From: Eubacteriales bacterium
GTDB lineage: Bacteria > Bacillota > Clostridia > Lachnospirales > Lachnospiraceae
Direction: 5' to 3'
NCBI GenBank assembly: GCA_030536575.1
Contig: JAUNPS010000011.1
Coordinates: 49,209 to 113,208 of the forward strand
Length of the DNA stretch: 64,000 nucleotides
Shown here: in pieces, positions 48,274-55,890 of the stretch
Layout: every line of letters starts with the position of its first letter
Position numbering within the stretch: position 1 is the stretch's first letter
Notes under the pieces: model-generated
The model's input: the letters and a program-made list of their open reading frames with translations, nothing else
The model's database searches: none
What the model was told of the DNA's origin: nothing
Made by a program: the position numbers and the translations under genes

Positions 48274-49812
48274 TTACTCAGCCGCTTCGTCGGCCGCCTT
48301 CTTCACCTCTTCGGCAGCCTCCTCATTCAGCCCGGTAATATTAATATTCCGATTTACCTTCGCATCATACGTTCCGGCCTTCATGATCTCGCCAAGATCG
48401 ATCCCGACCGTCTCCTTCATGGACTCAAACAGCTTCGCCATCACCGCCGGGACATTTCCCGCCACATTGTCAACGCCGCTGCCGTCTCCTCCGATGATCG
48501 TAATCTTATCGATCTGCGTCAAAGGCTCCGCAATCTTGCCCGCAATATCCGGCAATACCTTAATCAGCATCTCCGCCATCGCCGCATTGTTATACTTCTG
48601 ATAAGCCTCCGCCTTCTTCTCCATGGCCTGGGCCTCCGCCAGACCTTTCGCCCGGATCGCCTCTGCTTCCGCTTCGCCGACCCTGCGGATACCTTCCGCT
48701 TCCTGCTCTCTGGTGTAGCGGTCCGCCTCGGCCTTCGCTCTCTGGGCCTGGGCTTCCTGCTCCATCTCGAACTTCTTCGCTTCCGCGCTCTTCTCGATCT
48801 CGATCTTCTTCGCCTCAGCATCCTTCTGGCGCTCATACAGCTCGGCTTCCGCCTTCTGCTGGCGCTCGAAACGCTCCGCTTCGGCTTTCTTCCGGATCTG
48901 GGCATCCAGCGATTTTTCCATAACCTCGGCTTCCTTCTGTTTCAGCAGGATCACCTTTTCTTCCTTCGCAATGTCCGCCTCGGAAGCGGTTACTTCGATG
49001 GTCTTTCTCTGCTCTTCCTTCTGGATTTCGTAAGCCGCGTCCGCTTCTGCGCGCTTGGTGTCCGCGACTTTCTGCAGGTCGGATTTCTGGATATCCAGCT
49101 CGTTATTTTTGATGGCAATTTCGCGCTGGGCGTTAATCCGCGCGTCGTTGGCCTGTTTATCCGCTTCGGCTTTCGCCACGGCGATTTCTTTTTCCGCCTC
49201 AGCCTTTGCAATGGCGGCTTTTTTCTTGATCTGGGAAATGTTATCGATACCAAGGTCGTCGATAACGCCGTTTCCATCGGTGAAGTTCTGGACGTTAAAG
49301 CTTACAATGTCCAGGCCCATGGCCGCCAGATCCGGGTCGGCATTTTCTTTGACCAGGTTCGCGAATTTCTGGCGGTCGCCCACCATCTCTTCCAGGCGCA
49401 TGCGTCCGACGATCTCACGCATATTGCCTTCCAGGACTTCCCGTGCAACCTGGGCAATGTACTGGGTGTTCTGGTTTAAGAAGTTCTCTGCCGCCAGAGA
49501 AAGCTTTTCCCGTTCGCTGCTGATCTTTACATTGACTGCCGCGTCCACCTGAATATTAATATAATCCGCGGTGGGAACGGCGCTGGACGTTTTCACGTCA
49601 ATGGGGATCAGCTTCAGGCTCAGCTTATCCATTCTTTCCAGAAACGGGATCTTAATGCTCGATTTCCCGATGATGATTTTCTTTCGCAGGCCCGAAATAA
49701 TAAAGGCGGTATCGGGCGGCGCCTTCACATAACCGGTGGCAATGATAGCAAGAACCAGAATGACTACTAGAATCCCAATAAAAATTCCCGTGTTTTCCAT
49801 AATAAAATCCAT
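48274..49812 (-). CDS. Flotillin-like SPFH/band-7 membrane protein
   Basis: This 512-residue protein has an N-terminal membrane segment (IFIGILVVILVLAIIATGYV), the SPFH domain (about 30-190), a long Ala/Glu/Lys-rich coiled coil (about 195-430: EAEKEIAVAKAEAD, AEAERFERQQ, AKKIEIEKSAEAKKFEM) and a short C-terminal tail. Flotillins organise membrane microdomains and influence secretion, signalling and lipid order. The usual NfeD partner gene is absent. A riboswitch-like leader lies upstream at 49984. The ATG has AGGAAGAGG upstream. Confidence 0.93.
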   Translation of the reverse strand: MDFIMENTGIFIGILVVILVLAIIATGYVKAPPDTAFIISGLRKKIIIGKSSIKIPFLERMDKLSLKLIPIDVKTSSAVPTADYINIQVDAAVNVKISSEREKLSLAAENFLNQNTQYIAQVAREVLEGNMREIVGRMRLEEMVGDRQKFANLVKENADPDLAAMGLDIVSFNVQNFTDGNGVIDDLGIDNISQIKKKAAIAKAEAEKEIAVAKAEADKQANDARINAQREIAIKNNELDIQKSDLQKVADTKRAEADAAYEIQKEEQRKTIEVTASEADIAKEEKVILLKQKEAEVMEKSLDAQIRKKAEAERFERQQKAEAELYERQKDAEAKKIEIEKSAEAKKFEMEQEAQAQRAKAEADRYTREQEAEGIRRVGEAEAEAIRAKGLAEAQAMEKKAEAYQKYNNAAMAEMLIKVLPDIAGKIAEPLTQIDKITIIGGDGSGVDNVAGNVPAVMAKLFESMKETVGIDLGEIMKAGTYDAKVNRNINITGLNEEAAEEVKKAADEAAE

Positions 49813-49983
49813 ATGTTTTTTCCTCTTCCTTTCTTAATTTTATCCGTTTTCGGTTCCGCAGTCCCCTTTTTGGCCGCCTCCTTTCCGTTTCCGGCCATCC
49901 GGCTGTCTCTGCGGCAATGCTCCGCTTCGCCGAACCTTTTCAGCAAAGCGCTTTTTTCTTCTATATTTATTCTCCATATAAAA

Positions 49984-50115
49984 GAAAAAAGACTTTTACC
50001 GCAGTCAAATACTGTAATAAAAGTCTCGCGCATTTCATTCGATACGGATTTTTCAATCGTCCTGACGATTTCGAATCACTCCTGGATAAGAGTGTCGGCT
50101 ACTCCCTTTTATGTT
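49984..50115 (-). promoter_or_regulatory. yybP-ykoY-like manganese riboswitch with terminator
   Basis: The leader has the conserved AAAAGGGAGTAGCC (L1) after the 5' strand of P1 (ATAAAAG), CGTCA in the internal loop, a hairpin CGTAT/ATGCG (P4-like) and GCGAGAC before the 3' strand of P1 (CTTTTAT). The same CTTTTAT is the 5' strand of a terminator, GACTTTTA...TAAAAGTC with TTTTTT at 49984-50025, so ligand binding would favour read-through. The pattern matches the Mn2+-sensing yybP-ykoY class. Confidence 0.78.
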
Positions 50116-50121
50116 GAAAAT

Positions 50122-50150
50122 ACTATACCATTTCCTCAAAATATTGTCAA
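50122..50150 (-). promoter_or_regulatory. Promoter of the riboswitch-flotillin transcript
   Basis: TTGACA (50145-50150) and TATAGT (50122-50127) are 17 bp apart, a strong match. Confidence 0.88.
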
Positions 50151-50347
50151 TAATTTAACATTATTTATTTTTTAAGATTTTCTTAGGAATACTTCAGAAA
50201 TTATATGACAATTTTATCTTTTGTGTTCTATTGTAAAATACAGCCTTTTTCCGTCCCCATCCTTCTACAAAATCCGCATAGCAAAATGCACAATTTTTCG
50301 ATTCCCCGTAAAATTTCATACACATCCCAGGTGGACAAATCCCCGTT

Positions 50348-50419
50348 TTATCCACATTCCAAATTTCTGTTTTTGGGGGAAAAATGGACTTATACACCAA
50401 GTTATCCACATTATCCACA
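50348..50419 (+). other. Cluster of DnaA boxes
   Basis: Perfect TTATCCACA occurs at 50348-50356, 50402-50410 and 50411-50419 (the last two abut). Near matches are TTATACACC at 50390-50398 and TTATCCCAA at 50481-50489, all in one orientation. The surrounding 540 bp have no gene and are AT-rich. No dnaA, dnaN or rpmH lies near, so this need not be the origin; B. subtilis has similar clusters outside oriC that titrate DnaA. Confidence 0.8.
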
Positions 50420-50695
50420 CTTTTTACCCACTTTTCCGTGGTTTACATAGGTTTGTTTTCCAAACGGATGTTTTGTGAAGTTATCCCAAATGGACTTTTT
50501 TCCGAAAAAAAGTCGAACATCCTGTCGTCTGCGAACTCCATTCTTTTTTCTGAAAATTTCAGGCATTTTCCTGCCCGGAGTTTCGAAAACTTTTCGAATT
50601 TCCAGCTCCATGTTAATCCTGGGTTTACCGTTCTGGTTTATGATACCCCTTGTAAAAATTCTGCCCTCATGGCATTTGAAAGAGGAGGACTCTCA

Positions 50696-52219
50696 ATGAA
50701 AAATCAAGAAACACGTAAGAAAAGGAAATGGCCCATCGTCGTAGCCATCCTGGTTCTGCTCCTGCTCGCGGCGATCCTGTCCCTTTTCATTCTTGGGCGC
50801 AAGGCGACTACAGCCATCCAAAACAGCGTCACCACGGAAGCCGTTTTCACAGGCTCCATTTCCGTGACCACCGAAGGAAGCGGTTCCGTCGAAGCAGCTT
50901 CCACCAAAGCCCTTGCCCTGGAATATGACGGCAAATTGGAAACCATCTACGTAGAAAAAGGCGACCAGGTACAGCCTGGCGACGTCCTGGCCATCTACGA
51001 TACCGATGCGCTGGACAGCGTCATTGAAGCAAAAGAAGCGGAGCTTGAGCAGTTAAACAGCACGATTGTTGCCACGGACGATTCCGGCTCCACCTCTATC
51101 ACAGCCCCGGTGACCGGACGCGTGAAACGCATCTACGCCTCCACAGACGATGTGGTTTCCAATGTGGTGGATGCCAACGGCGGCCTTGCGGAAATTTCCG
51201 CCGACGGAAAGCTGAAAGTGGAATTCCCGCTTCCCGAAACCACGCTCTACGAAGGGGATTCCGTAACCGTTGATTTCGACTCCAAGTCTGCGGACGGCAC
51301 CGTCGAAAAAATCGAAGACGGCATTGTCCGCGTAACGATCAAAGATGACACGGAATATATGGTGGATACCACCGCCGTCGTGCGCGGGAAATCCGGCGTG
51401 AAGCTTGGAGAAGGCATCCTGCTTTCCAATCATCCGTACCTCGTCACCGCTTCTTATGGAATCATCGACTCCGTGGAAGTCACGAAAACTTCCTTCGTCA
51501 ATGCAGGGGACGTCCTGTTCACCCGCCGGGACGCAGCCTATAATCAGACCTACCTGGATCTGCTGACCGACCGGGAGGAACTCATCGAGGAGCTTCAGGA
51601 ATTGAAAGAATATCAGAAAAATCCGGTCGTTACTGCCGACTGCGAAGGCTACATTGTCTCTCTTGACGTGCTGGAAGGCATGCCTTACGAGAAAGACCAG
51701 CAGTTCTGCACCATTGCGGACGCGCAGACCCTGAATCTGAAAGTGGAAATCGACGAGCTGGATATCGACGGCGTGGAAGTTGGCCAGCATGCTTCCGTGG
51801 TATTTGACGCTTTCGAAGACGAAACTTACGACGGCACTGTGGAAAAAATTTCCGGCGTAGGAACAAATTCCGGCGGAGTAACGACCTATACCGTAACCAT
51901 TGCCCTGGAAGGCGACACCCATCTGAAAAACGCCATGAGCGCCACCGCCGCCATCACCCTGGCGAGTAAGGACAATGTCCTGCTGATTCCGGTGGACGCC
52001 ATCGAAACCATTGAGGGCCAGAAATACGTTCAGGTTATGGACGGCGATCTGATCACCCAGACCCCGGTAACCCTTGGCCTAGTCAACACGGAATACGCCG
52101 AGGTCACGGAAGGCCTCACAAGCGGCCAGCAGGTTGTCGTCAACACCCGAACCAGCACCGACATTCTTTCCGCCATGATGGCGCAGCGGGATTCCATGAT
52201 GGGCGGCAGCAGAAATTAG
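50696..52219 (+). CDS. Membrane fusion protein, HlyD/MacA-like
   Basis: This 507-residue protein has an N-terminal anchor helix ([23 protein letters not shown]), lipoyl/barrel-sandwich halves ([31 protein letters not shown] and [18 protein letters not shown]), a short coiled coil ([10 protein letters not shown]) and a beta-barrel domain with [27 protein letters not shown]. In Gram-positive cells it works with a MacB/YknYZ exporter. The start at 50696 follows AGAGGAGG by 7 bp; the open frame upstream (from 50384) is intergenic. It forms an operon with the two ABC genes. Confidence 0.9.
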
Positions 52220-52230
52220 GAGACAGCCTT

Positions 52231-52926
52231 ATGATTGAATTGGAAAATATTAAAAAAATCTACAGCTTAGGCGGTGAAGAGGTTCATGCGCTGGACGGCG
52301 TGACTTTAAATGTCTGCGAGCACGAATTCGTTGCCATCGTGGGGGCCTCCGGAAGCGGGAAATCCACGCTGATGAATATCATTGGCTGCCTGGACACGCC
52401 GGATGAGGGCAATTATTACATTGACGGGCAGGACGTGACGTCTTTAAGCGAACGGGATCTCGCCACGATGCGGAACCGGAAAATCGGCTTTATTTTCCAG
52501 CAGTTTAACCTCCTGCCGAAGCTGACCGCTTATGAAAATGTGGAGCTTCCGCTGATTTACCAGGGCGTTCCGGGAAAGGAGCGCCGGGAACGGGCAGAGG
52601 AGGCCCTGGAGCGTGTGGGCCTGTCGAAACGGATGCACCACCGTCCCAATCAGCTTTCCGGCGGACAGCAGCAGCGGGTAGCGGTTGCCCGCGCTCTCGC
52701 CACAAGGCCTTCCCTGATCCTGGCCGACGAGCCCACCGGAAACCTGGATTCCAAGTCCAGCCGGGATATTATGGGGCTGATTCACGAACTGCATGAGCAA
52801 GGGAACACGATCATCCTGATCACGCACGACGACAGCATTGCGGAAAAAGCCGAGCGGCAGGTGCGTATTATGGACGGGAAAATTATTTCGGACAGCAAAG
52901 ACCAGTTAAGGGGGTATCCGGCATGA
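52231..52926 (+). CDS. ABC transporter ATPase, MacB/LolD type
   Basis: This 231-residue ATPase has Walker [10 protein letters not shown] at about 36-44, Q-loop FQQFNLL, signature [15 protein letters not shown], Walker [13 protein letters not shown] and H-loop ITHDD. It powers the FtsX-like permease next to it. The start is 11 bp after the fusion protein. Confidence 0.96.
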
Positions 52927-54089
52927 AATTAAAACAGTCCTTTAAAATGGCGGTTTCCGCGATTTCCTCTAATAAAATGCGTTCATTCCTGACCATGCTT
53001 GGAATCATCATCGGCGTTCTCTCCGTCACCCTTCTGATCTCCATCGTGCAGGGCGGGACGGGAAGTATTCTGGATTCTATGGAGGATTTGGGGGGCGATC
53101 AGATTATTGTCACGGTTACGGATCGCCATAAGAAGCTGACTTACAGTGAACTGAACGAACTTTCCGGCGCGGACGGCATTAACCAGGTTTCGCCCTATCT
53201 TTCCGGAAACGGCATTGCGAAAGCCGCCGGAAATTCCACGGATATCTCCATTACCGGCGTCACCCCGGTTTACCAGGACGTACAGGGTTTTGATCTGGAG
53301 CTTGGGCGGAATTTCACTGATCTGGACCTGGAAAACCGGCTGGATGTGTGCATCGTCGGCACCGGCGTGGCAATGGATTTGTTCGGAACCACCAACGTCT
53401 GCGGAAGCAGCATCCGCATTTCCGGCATTGACTACCAGATTATCGGCGTTCTGGAAGAGGACGACACGGCGATGATGGGAAGCGATAACAGCAGCGTTTA
53501 CCTGCCTCTGACGAACGCCCAGCGCCTGTTAAAGCAGACCGCCATCACGACTTTTTATATCACGGCCGCGGATGAAAACAATCTTTCGGAGGCGCAGGAT
53601 GCCATCGACCATTATCTTCTTCAGAAATTTGGCTCCGATGACAGCTACACGATCATCAATATGTCCAATATCATGGATATGATGAATACGGTTCTGGATA
53701 CGCTTTCGATCATGCTGGCGGGCATTGCGGCGATTTCCCTTCTGGTAGGCGGAATCGGCATTATGAACATTATGCTGGTGTCTGTGACGGAGCGCACGAA
53801 GGAAATCGGAATCCGGAAGGCCATCGGGGCGCAGCGCAGCGATATTACCGTGCAATTTATGATTGAGTCCGTGCTTATTTCGCTGATTGGTGGTATAATC
53901 GGAATGGTAATCAGCCAGTTGGTTCTGTCGATTCTGAATGTGCTGTTTACGGATTATCATTTTGCGATTTCCCTTCCGGTGGGGGCGCTGGCGCTGGGAT
54001 TTTCCATTGGCGTCGGCCTGATTTTTGGTATTTATCCGGCCAATAAGGCGGCGAAGTTAAAGCCGATCAATGCCCTGCGCTTCGAGTAA
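52923..54089 (+). CDS. ABC transporter permease, MacB/FtsX type
   Basis: This 388-residue protein has a first helix ([25 protein letters not shown]), a large extracellular MacB-like domain (about 45-270) and three C-terminal helices with [20 protein letters not shown] between. Start overlaps the ATPase stop by four bases. Such systems export peptides, toxins or respond to envelope stress. The following regulators suggest induction by the exported or attacking compound (inference). Confidence 0.95.
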
Positions 54090-54142
54090 GCATTGCTCTG
54101 GTTTTCGGATGGGCTGTTCCCGGAAGGGGCTGGGAGGTTGCT

Positions 54143-54814
54143 ATGTTTCAGATTATGGTTGTGGAAGATGATAAAAGCGCTGCCCGTCTCCTGCGGGCAG
54201 TCTTATCCCATGCCGGGTATGAGGTGGCGGCGGCGGAAAACGGCCTGGAGGCCCTGGCGCTGCTGGACAGCCGTCATGTGGATCTCATTGTGATGGATCT
54301 GATGATGCCTGGGATGGACGGCTATACCCTGACGGAGAATCTGCGCAGTTCCGGAAATACGGTTCCGATTCTGATGCTGACGGCGAAGCAGCTTCCCGCC
54401 GACAAATACCGCGGCTTTCTGGCCGGAACGGACGATTATATGACGAAACCGTTCGACGAGGAGGAATTTCTGCTGCGGATTAAGGCGCTGCTTCGCCGGG
54501 CCGGGATTTCCAGCGAACATCGTCTGCGCATTGGCAATGTTACGCTGGATTACGACGCCCTGAGCGTGAGCCGTGGGGACGAAGTGCAGACTCTCCCGCC
54601 CAAGGAATTTTATCTGCTTTACAAACTGTTATCCTACCCCGGAAAGATTTTTACCCGCATCCAGCTCATGGACGAAATCTGGGGAATGGAATCGGAATCC
54701 GTGGATACCACGGTCAATGTACACATCAACCGGCTCCGGAAGCGTTTTGACCACTACCCGGAGTTTGAAATCGTCGCCATCCGCGGCATTGGTTATAAGG
54801 CGGTCGTCCTATGA
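54143..54814 (+). CDS. OmpR-family response regulator
   Basis: This 223-residue protein has a receiver domain (acidic D9, D10; phosphoryl site D52 in LIVMDLMMPG; lysine in YMTKPFD) and a winged-helix DNA-binding domain (about 125-220: LPPKEFYLLYKLLSYPGKIFTRIQLMDEIWG, VDTTVNVHINRLRKRF). It lies 53 bp after the ABC permease and overlaps the kinase start by four bases. Confidence 0.97.
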   Translation: MFQIMVVEDDKSAARLLRAVLSHAGYEVAAAENGLEALALLDSRHVDLIVMDLMMPGMDGYTLTENLRSSGNTVPILMLTAKQLPADKYRGFLAGTDDYMTKPFDEEEFLLRIKALLRRAGISSEHRLRIGNVTLDYDALSVSRGDEVQTLPPKEFYLLYKLLSYPGKIFTRIQLMDEIWGMESESVDTTVNVHINRLRKRFDHYPEFEIVAIRGIGYKAVVL

Positions 54815-55890
54815 AAAAAACTTCGCATTCTTCTGAAATTCCCGATAAATTCTGCCACCGGGCCGGTTTGACCCTGTGGATGGTGATTCTGATTTTTTTC
54901 ATGATGCTGCTGGATATCTGCATCAGCTTTGGGCTGCTTTTGCTGTTGGGCAGGCTGGGGCTGCTCTCGGACAGGGGATCGCGCCATCCGCTGGTTATGC
55001 TGGCGCTGATCAGCATTATTCTGGGCATTGGCCTTTCTTTCATATTCAGTTGGAAAATTTTAGAGCCTATGCGGAAGGTGATTTCATTTACGGAGGAGCT
55101 GGCACGCGGAAATTTTGACATCCGCATTGACACCGGAGATATGCCTAAATTCCGGGAAATGTATGTGCTGACGGAAAGTTTTAATCATTTGGCTGAGGAG
55201 CTTGGAAGCCTGGAGATGCTGCGCTCGGATTTTGTCAATGATTTTTCTCATGAGTTTAAGACGCCGATTGCTTCCATCCGCGGGTTTGCCAAAATGCTCC
55301 AGCGGGACGATCTGACGGCTGAGGAGCGGGAAGAGTATCTGGAGATCATTGTGCGGGAGTCGGGGCGGCTGACGGATCTGGCGACGAATGTGCTGAATCT
55401 TTCGAAGATTGAGAATCAGACGATTCTGACCGGGCAGACGGTTTATAATTGTTCGGAGCAGATCCGGAGGATGATTGTGCTGCTGGAGCCGAAATGGGCG
55501 CGGAAACGGCAGCGGATTTTTCTGGAATGCGACGAGGTGGAGATTTATGCGAACATGGAGCTGATGGAGCAGGTTTGGATTAATCTTCTGGATAATGCGA
55601 TTAAGTTTTCGCCGGAGGATGGGGTGATTGAGTTGTTTCTGCGAAAGCGCCCTGGGGGTGTACTTTTGTCGGTGAAGGATTGTGGGCCGGGGATTGCGCC
55701 GGAGGCGGCGGAGCATATTTTTGATAAGTTTTATCAGGGGGAGGAGGCGAGGTCGGAAGCGGGGAATGGATTGGGGCTGGCGATTGCGCAGAGGATTGTG
55801 GGGCTGCATGGCGGGGAGATTTGGGTGGAAAAAACCGGGGAGAAAGGGACGACATTTGGGGTGAGGGTGCCGATGGAGGAGGGAATCTAA
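54811..55890 (+). CDS. Sensor histidine kinase of the efflux operon
   Basis: This 359-residue kinase has two membrane helices (about 20-48 and 60-80), a very short outside loop (about 12 residues), HAMP, a HisKA dimerisation helix with DFSHEFKTPIASI (H147), and HATPase boxes WINLLDNAIKFSPEDG, DCGPGIAPEAAEHIFDKFY and GNGLGLAIAQRIV. The tiny outside loop suggests an intramembrane sensor that detects the stress through the membrane or the transporter, as in BceS-type kinases. Confidence 0.95.
   Translation: MKKTSHSSEIPDKFCHRAGLTLWMVILIFFMMLLDICISFGLLLLLGRLGLLSDRGSRHPLVMLALISIILGIGLSFIFSWKILEPMRKVISFTEELARGNFDIRIDTGDMPKFREMYVLTESFNHLAEELGSLEMLRSDFVNDFSHEFKTPIASIRGFAKMLQRDDLTAEEREEYLEIIVRESGRLTDLATNVLNLSKIENQTILTGQTVYNCSEQIRRMIVLLEPKWARKRQRIFLECDEVEIYANMELMEQVWINLLDNAIKFSPEDGVIELFLRKRPGGVLLSVKDCGPGIAPEAAEHIFDKFYQGEEARSEAGNGLGLAIAQRIVGLHGGEIWVEKTGEKGTTFGVRVPMEEGI

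Follow-up and report, generated by a model that had tools for sequence, protein, structure and literature searches.

A predicted yybP-ykoY-class riboswitch in front of a flotillin gene in a Lachnospiraceae genome

Two described yybP-ykoY riboswitches come closest to the leader studied here. The Mn2+ riboswitch in front of Lactococcus lactis yoaB has the same L1-L3 pocket and an L3 that likewise counts 7 nt and follows UCANNNC (UCA41AUUC), in which N7 of A41 contacts Mn2+ (PMC6754395), and the 3' strand of its P1 competes with an intrinsic terminator (PMC6754395, PMC11087558). Binding of Mn2+ stabilises P1.1, and the terminator is prevented (PMC11087558). It differs from our leader in having a four-way junction with a P4 helix, which ours lacks, and in serving a transporter instead of a flotillin. 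The Streptococcus pneumoniae mgtA riboswitch is, like ours, a three-way junction without P4; however, its target is a Mn2+/Ca2+ P-type ATPase, and according to a review its aptamer has, in vitro, a higher affinity for Ca2+ than for Mn2+ (PMC9495176).

On the protein side, the relatives are FloT and FloA of Bacillus subtilis, which belong to the same family as the flotillin of our locus. To our knowledge, no riboswitch precedes either floT or floA. The flotillin studied here carries a Pfam Band_7 domain (PF01145, residues 40-208, 84.5 bits) and, in its C-terminal region, a Flot domain (PF15975, residues 372-449, 41.9 bits), both over the cut-off; it matches the NCBIfam FloT model with an E-value of 7.7e-90, yet stays under the cut-off of that family. 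Its nearest solved structures are flotillin-1 and -2. Within the texts it reached, which did not extend to the target lists of the founding papers, our literature search, judged by titles and opening lines of abstracts among the papers listed, returned no report linking a yybP-ykoY riboswitch to flotillin, HflK or SPFH proteins, nor any tying a riboswitch to YccF or a yybP-ykoY element in Lachnospiraceae to flotillin.

The locus lies in a 64-kb stretch of a Lachnospiraceae contig, hereafter the window. A first reading of the sequence alone had placed a flotillin gene 170 bp behind the terminator of a yybP-ykoY riboswitch; flotillin is indeed the next gene, and the distance is slightly larger when counted from the terminator stem (Table 1). 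The promoter, a strong one by its sequence, is separated from the aptamer by only a few bases, and the aptamer overlaps the terminator stem. A scan of positions 49700-50720 for sigma-70-type sites returned a single site on the minus strand, and six on both strands where 2.4 were expected. None lies between the terminator and flotillin, a position in which a promoter would have spoken against control by the leader, and an internal promoter was therefore set aside. The predicted fold of the leader is more stable than all 200 of 200 shuffled sequences (z -3.6). The next large gene on the same strand as flotillin is clpB. We also set aside an 88-aa frame (49767-50033) as a gene, as it has no Pfam match.

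Table 1. Predicted features of the flotillin leader in the window, and further copies of the element in the same genome
Feature	Position	Strand	Remarks
Promoter TTGACA-17-TATAGT, extended -10 (TG)	50122..50150	minus	11/12 consensus matches
yybP-ykoY-type aptamer, three-way junction without P4	50015..50114	minus	R2 64.9 bits; R1 104.1 bits (high by construction)
P1 (switch helix) 5' arm ATAAAAG	50106..50112	minus	pairs with 50017-50023
L1 core GGAGTAG	50099..50105	minus	invariant across eight aligned flotillin leaders; altered in L094
P2 hairpin	50077..50094	minus	compensatory changes among relatives
P3, L3, P3.1 domain	50037..50076	minus	two-sided changes in 4/6 P3 pairs
P3 arms	50071-50076 and 50037-50042	minus	
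P3.1	50047-50058	minus	
L3 loop TCAGGAC	50059..50065	minus	third base A = 50063
P1 3' arm CTTTTAT, shared with terminator 5' arm	50017..50023	minus	7/7 bases pair in terminator
Intrinsic terminator	49985..50026	minus	stem 50026-49991, T-run 49990-49985; -14.3 kcal/mol
Flotillin gene, 512 aa	48274..49812	minus	ATG at 49812, 178 nt past terminator stem
Own-genome copy	C93		before flotillin
Own-genome copy	C8		before orf-YccF operon
Own-genome copy	C73		before HflK gene (TIGR01933 226.9 bits, cut-off 159.4)
Own-genome copy	C23		before P-type ATPase gene
Own-genome copy	C55		directly before Pfam-confirmed MntP; E 0.02 genome-wide; matching terminator

The Rfam model of the class, RF00080, gave no match at the flotillin leader, neither at its gathering cut-off nor at E<=10, in searches of the window and of its genome, and no match over the cut-off in any of 116 genomes (the source genome and its relatives). 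At E<=10 it listed a single locus in the source genome (L001), in which we see no aptamer and which neither of our own models matched, and it missed that genome's own mntP leader. Since this mntP leader was also missed, and since the mntP leaders of two relatives (L118 and L119) score only 22.8 and 20.3 bits, we give the poor RF00080 score little weight. RF00080 is insensitive to this group of leaders, which is a limit of detection and not a structural feature of the leaders; members with a three-way junction seem to be under-represented in it.

As RF00080 was silent at the leader, the same element was sought at other loci. A pattern scan of 111 loci (110 flotillin loci and L001) gave eight flotillin leaders, that of the window included, from which a covariance model (R1) was built; three matches to a relaxed pattern (L049, L103, L111) were dropped because R1 gave no match there. 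Of the 14 loci with a weak RF00080 match in relatives, R1 matched 12. Behind leaders matched in this way, Pfam names MntP (L118, L119), GDT1 (L113, L125), a P-type ATPase (L122) and a Na/Ca exchanger (L116). The converse test, which is the stronger one, used a second model, R2. It contains no flotillin row and was built from the leaders of 54 P-type ATPase and Na/Ca-exchanger-like genes, its structure being predicted from these leaders themselves. They come from 63 such loci, three being skipped for their length and six left out as divergent-looking. R2 recovered one of the two loci missed by R1 (L120); the other (L123), matched by neither model, appears by eye to be a chance RF00080 match inside a reading frame.

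Searched against the whole window at E<=1, R2 returned one match, the flotillin leader (E 3e-13), and it also matched all 13 other flotillin leaders, with the caveat on its independence that its 54 exporter leaders had been found with R1. Across the order, R2 matched in 158 of 392 genomes. The covariance search that the sequence-only reading had proposed for the class splits, with a poor score for RF00080 and a strong one for R2. The R2 match, the letters of the pocket and the covariation described below support the assignment of the leader to the yybP-ykoY class, and by this comparison the flotillin leader is a predicted riboswitch of a known class with an unusual target.

Among the eight flotillin leaders, compensatory two-sided changes are found in 7 of 27 pairs, a count reached by 2 of 500 shuffles; for the covariation score the figure is 9 of 500, and for the number of further pair types it is 134 of 500, which is unremarkable. 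In the exporter set used for R2, two-sided changes occur in 21 of 26 pairs (0/500 shuffles), the structure being the consensus of the same alignment. P1, P2 and P3 meet in a junction that this covariation supports, and which is three-way because P4 is absent; by eye, P4 is absent also from the mntP leaders L118 and L119.

The letters of L1 and L3 are invariant across the eight aligned flotillin leaders. The GGAGUA(G/A) core of L1 is present in the window leader; over 14 flotillin rows, L1 reads GGGAGTAG in 13 and GGGAACAG in L094, and that of the L014 leader reads GGGAGTAA. L3 has 7 nt with an A in third place in 14 of 14 scored flotillin rows out of 15, or 13 of 13 scored out of 14 distinct leaders: the script demands flanking CG/CG pairs and P3.1 and leaves L036 unscored, and L153 duplicates L033. 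Among 51 P-type ATPase leaders, L3 has 7 nt in 42 and 8 nt in five, four being unscored, and the A is present in 47 of 47 scored. The third base of the window L3 corresponds to the Mn2+-contacting A41 of L. lactis.

How would such a leader control flotillin? In all 14 distinct flotillin leaders (the window, L003, L014, L032, L033, L035, L036, L037, L038, L094, L154, L180, L202 and L218), the 5' arm of the terminator takes 5-7 of the 7 nt of the P1 3' strand (raw count). The same overlap, with 7 of 7 nt each, is found in the other four leaders of the genome (L145, L151, L261, L264). This arrangement matches that of L. lactis, and an ON switch for Mn2+ is therefore predicted. At low Mn2+, the P1 3' strand would pair into the terminator and RNA polymerase would halt before flotillin. 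With Mn2+ in the L1-L3 pocket, P1 would be locked, the terminator blocked and flotillin transcribed. Flotillin would thereby join a manganese regulon with the exporter genes mntP and P-type ATPase, with hflK, whose product is a modulator of FtsH (NCBIfam TIGR01933 match), and with the orf-YccF operon, and could help the membrane or the secretion machinery to withstand high Mn2+.

We consider it quite probable that the leader is a transcriptional Mn2+ ON switch of the yybP-ykoY class, which places flotillin in a manganese regulon together with genes of membrane quality control. Mn2+ is the likely ligand; we infer both the ligand and the ON direction from comparison with the described riboswitches. 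One of the two explanations offered at the outset, that the level of flotillin is tied to manganese, gains support from pocket letters like those of exporter leaders, from the competition between P1 and the terminator and from the retention of the leader with flotillin.

The genes found behind this element bear on the nature of its ligand. R1 matched in 136 of 397 Lachnospiraceae genomes at E<=0.001. Among the matches listed, 135 loci (27 + 28 + 80) were examined for their downstream genes, those from this family-wide search down to about 54 bits; weaker matches and three near contig ends were left out. Genes were classed by BLASTP to seed proteins, only some of which are named by Pfam. The classes are P-type ATPase (51), orf-YccF operon (32), Na/Ca-exchanger-like (12), HflK-type SPFH (12), flotillin (7), OadB (6), a family of unknown function (2), AI-2E-type (1) and unclassified (12), frequencies that are biased because R1 leans toward flotillin leaders. 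Still, 19 of the 135 leaders are followed by SPFH genes; with only a few such genes in some 3,000, we estimate that genes picked at random would yield well below one.

OadB, the beta subunit of a Na+-pumping decarboxylase, lies behind six leaders (L136, L144, L146, L194, L226, L248; assigned by BLASTP to a Pfam OAD_beta seed), which one would not expect of a Mn2+ sensor. Judged by eye, the genes behind five further leaders (L223, L236, L247, L237, L255) look like CNNM/CorC-type proteins in three cases, a permease for ions in one and a potassium transporter of the Kup type in one. In the orf-YccF operon, a conserved 149-aa protein is encoded ahead of YccF behind the riboswitch, in the source genome (L145:759-1205, on C8) and in 19 relatives. 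It has no Pfam or NCBIfam match; its predicted structure is a helical bundle (mean pLDDT 78.6), for which a comparison with solved structures gave no match at E<=0.001.

The leaders of the orf-YccF operon also depart from the others in the pocket. Their L3 has 6 nt instead of 7 in 24 of 32 (e.g. L155, L158, L160, L165), and three leaders (L168, L169, L176) carry U in place of the discriminator A (UCUUCUU). A 6-nt L3 is found in three HflK leaders as well (L191, L201, L231). Judging from these letters, the YccF-type leaders with an altered L3 may sense another ion.

Could the flotillin leader itself respond to another ion? The main rival to Mn2+ as ligand is Ca2+: the leader would be a yybP-ykoY variant for another divalent ion, most likely calcium, to which flotillin would then answer. 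Related leaders precede Ca/Mn-type P-type ATPases, Na/Ca-exchanger-like proteins and OadB; the mgtA aptamer has the in vitro preference for Ca2+ mentioned above, and yybP variants that bind something else have been anticipated by Breaker and colleagues (PMC7266159). However, the flotillin leaders retain the 7-nt L3 with the counterpart of the Mn2+-contacting A41, the same genome places this class before mntP, and transcription of mgtA itself is activated more by Mn2+ than by Ca2+ (PMC9495176). We regard a calcium response as unlikely.

The second explanation offered by the sequence-only reading was that an exporter had been lost and its leader captured by flotillin. That no metal transporter is near holds for the surroundings of the locus and fails for the genome. 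Searched at E<=10, the genome contains five copies of the element matched by R2 (Table 1), of which R1 matches the flotillin, orf-YccF and HflK copies only. Exporter loss is unsupported because mntP and a P-type ATPase gene remain, each behind its own riboswitch. Their leaders (L261 and L264) resemble the flotillin leader in matching R2 and in the terminator overlap; they differ in their target genes and in scoring lower (27.7 and 39.0 bits). By eye, the L3 of the mntP leader (ACAUAAU) belongs to the other known type, unlike the UCAGGAC of the flotillin leader. Compared in this way, the flotillin leader appears to be an RNA metal sensor of the type that stands before the genome's own manganese exporter.

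Most flotillins have no such leader, a point against a manganese-controlled flotillin: R1 found it at 10 of 110 flotillin loci, a count that includes duplicates, and R2 found nothing at the other 100 at E<1. In a tree of 95 flotillins (five duplicates removed), a clade of 11 that includes the window (SH-aLRT 97) carries the leader in 10 of its 11 members, or in 9 of 10 without L154, which had been added to the tree, like L180, L202 and L218, as leader-bearing. By eye, the eleventh member (L034) has a promoter close to the start codon and no leader. Outside the clade, the leader is found at L014, L180, L202 and L218, whose flotillins are 49-54% identical to that of the window over about 400 residues. 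The leader label changes 6 times on the tree, at least 5 of them forced by supported branches, compared with 13.4 for shuffled labels, a count that is not an unbiased rate because the four leader-bearing rows were added, and that is further limited by the long branches on which several of them sit. Moreover, the neighbouring genes vary among the leader-bearing loci compared (the window, L032, L033, L035-L038 and L094; L035, L037 and L038 share some), so that the leader and flotillin stay together while their surroundings change.

These results bear directly on the possibility that the leader is left over from an exporter since lost, its metal response gone. The class usually precedes transporters, and one flotillin leader, L094, has a changed L1. 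Nevertheless, both exporters persist with leaders of their own, the L1 and L3 letters and the competition between P1 and the terminator are kept across species, and almost the whole flotillin clade retains the leader; a relic is very improbable. That the leader is unrelated and with its terminator merely resembles the class, for which the missing RF00080 match at E<=10 would speak, is scarcely credible in view of the cross-detection of flotillin and exporter leaders by R1 and R2 in both directions, the covariation and the shared letters of L3.

Returning to the manganese switch, what would flotillin do in such a regulon? In B. subtilis, MeeF and its paralogue MeeY (YkoY, the protein of the Mn riboswitch) are both raised by Mn; they co-immunoprecipitate with the Sec translocon, FtsH, FloT and FloA, FloT with MeeF only, and cells devoid of both need FtsH (PMC10246235). 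At high Mn2+, FtsH and the rhomboid protease YqgP degrade MgtE, which protects the cell (PMC7231995). In Escherichia coli, overproduced MntP has been proposed to be toxic to the membrane (PMC11647493). The formation of mycobacterial metal-efflux foci without flotillin (PMC9374683) counts against a simple role of flotillin as an efflux platform. A Mn2+-driven response of flotillin and HflK would fit the upkeep of membrane proteins and of the translocon, a tie that we infer from the company of genes and from this literature.

The triggers of bacterial flotillin are poorly understood, and a metal sensor before flotillin and hflK offers a candidate, manganese overload, which fits the B. subtilis reports on FtsH and YqgP (PMC7231995) and on MeeY and MeeF with the translocon, FtsH and flotillins (PMC10246235). 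More tentatively, and with somewhat less than even confidence, we propose that in Lachnospiraceae a class of metal riboswitches runs a membrane-maintenance regulon, in which exporters, flotillin and HflK as SPFH scaffolds, and the orf-YccF operon of membrane proteins would be turned on at Mn2+ overload, and of which a YccF-type sub-branch (6-nt L3, three members lacking the discriminator A) would have been retuned to another ligand. If this proposal were true, metal stress and the quality control of membrane proteins would be wired together at the RNA level. A flotillin gene apparently under such a sensor hints that, in a gut bacterium, metal overload is tied to the upkeep of the membrane, which was not expected. 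Since RF00080 overlooks members of the class in gut Clostridia, the regulon there exceeds what such a scan would return.

Finally, a separate group of genes lies divergently from the leader, at 50696-55890 of the window. The first encodes an HlyD-type adaptor (Pfam) and is followed, as judged by eye, by an ABC ATPase, a permease, a response regulator and a histidine kinase, an arrangement that resembles a MacAB-type export locus.
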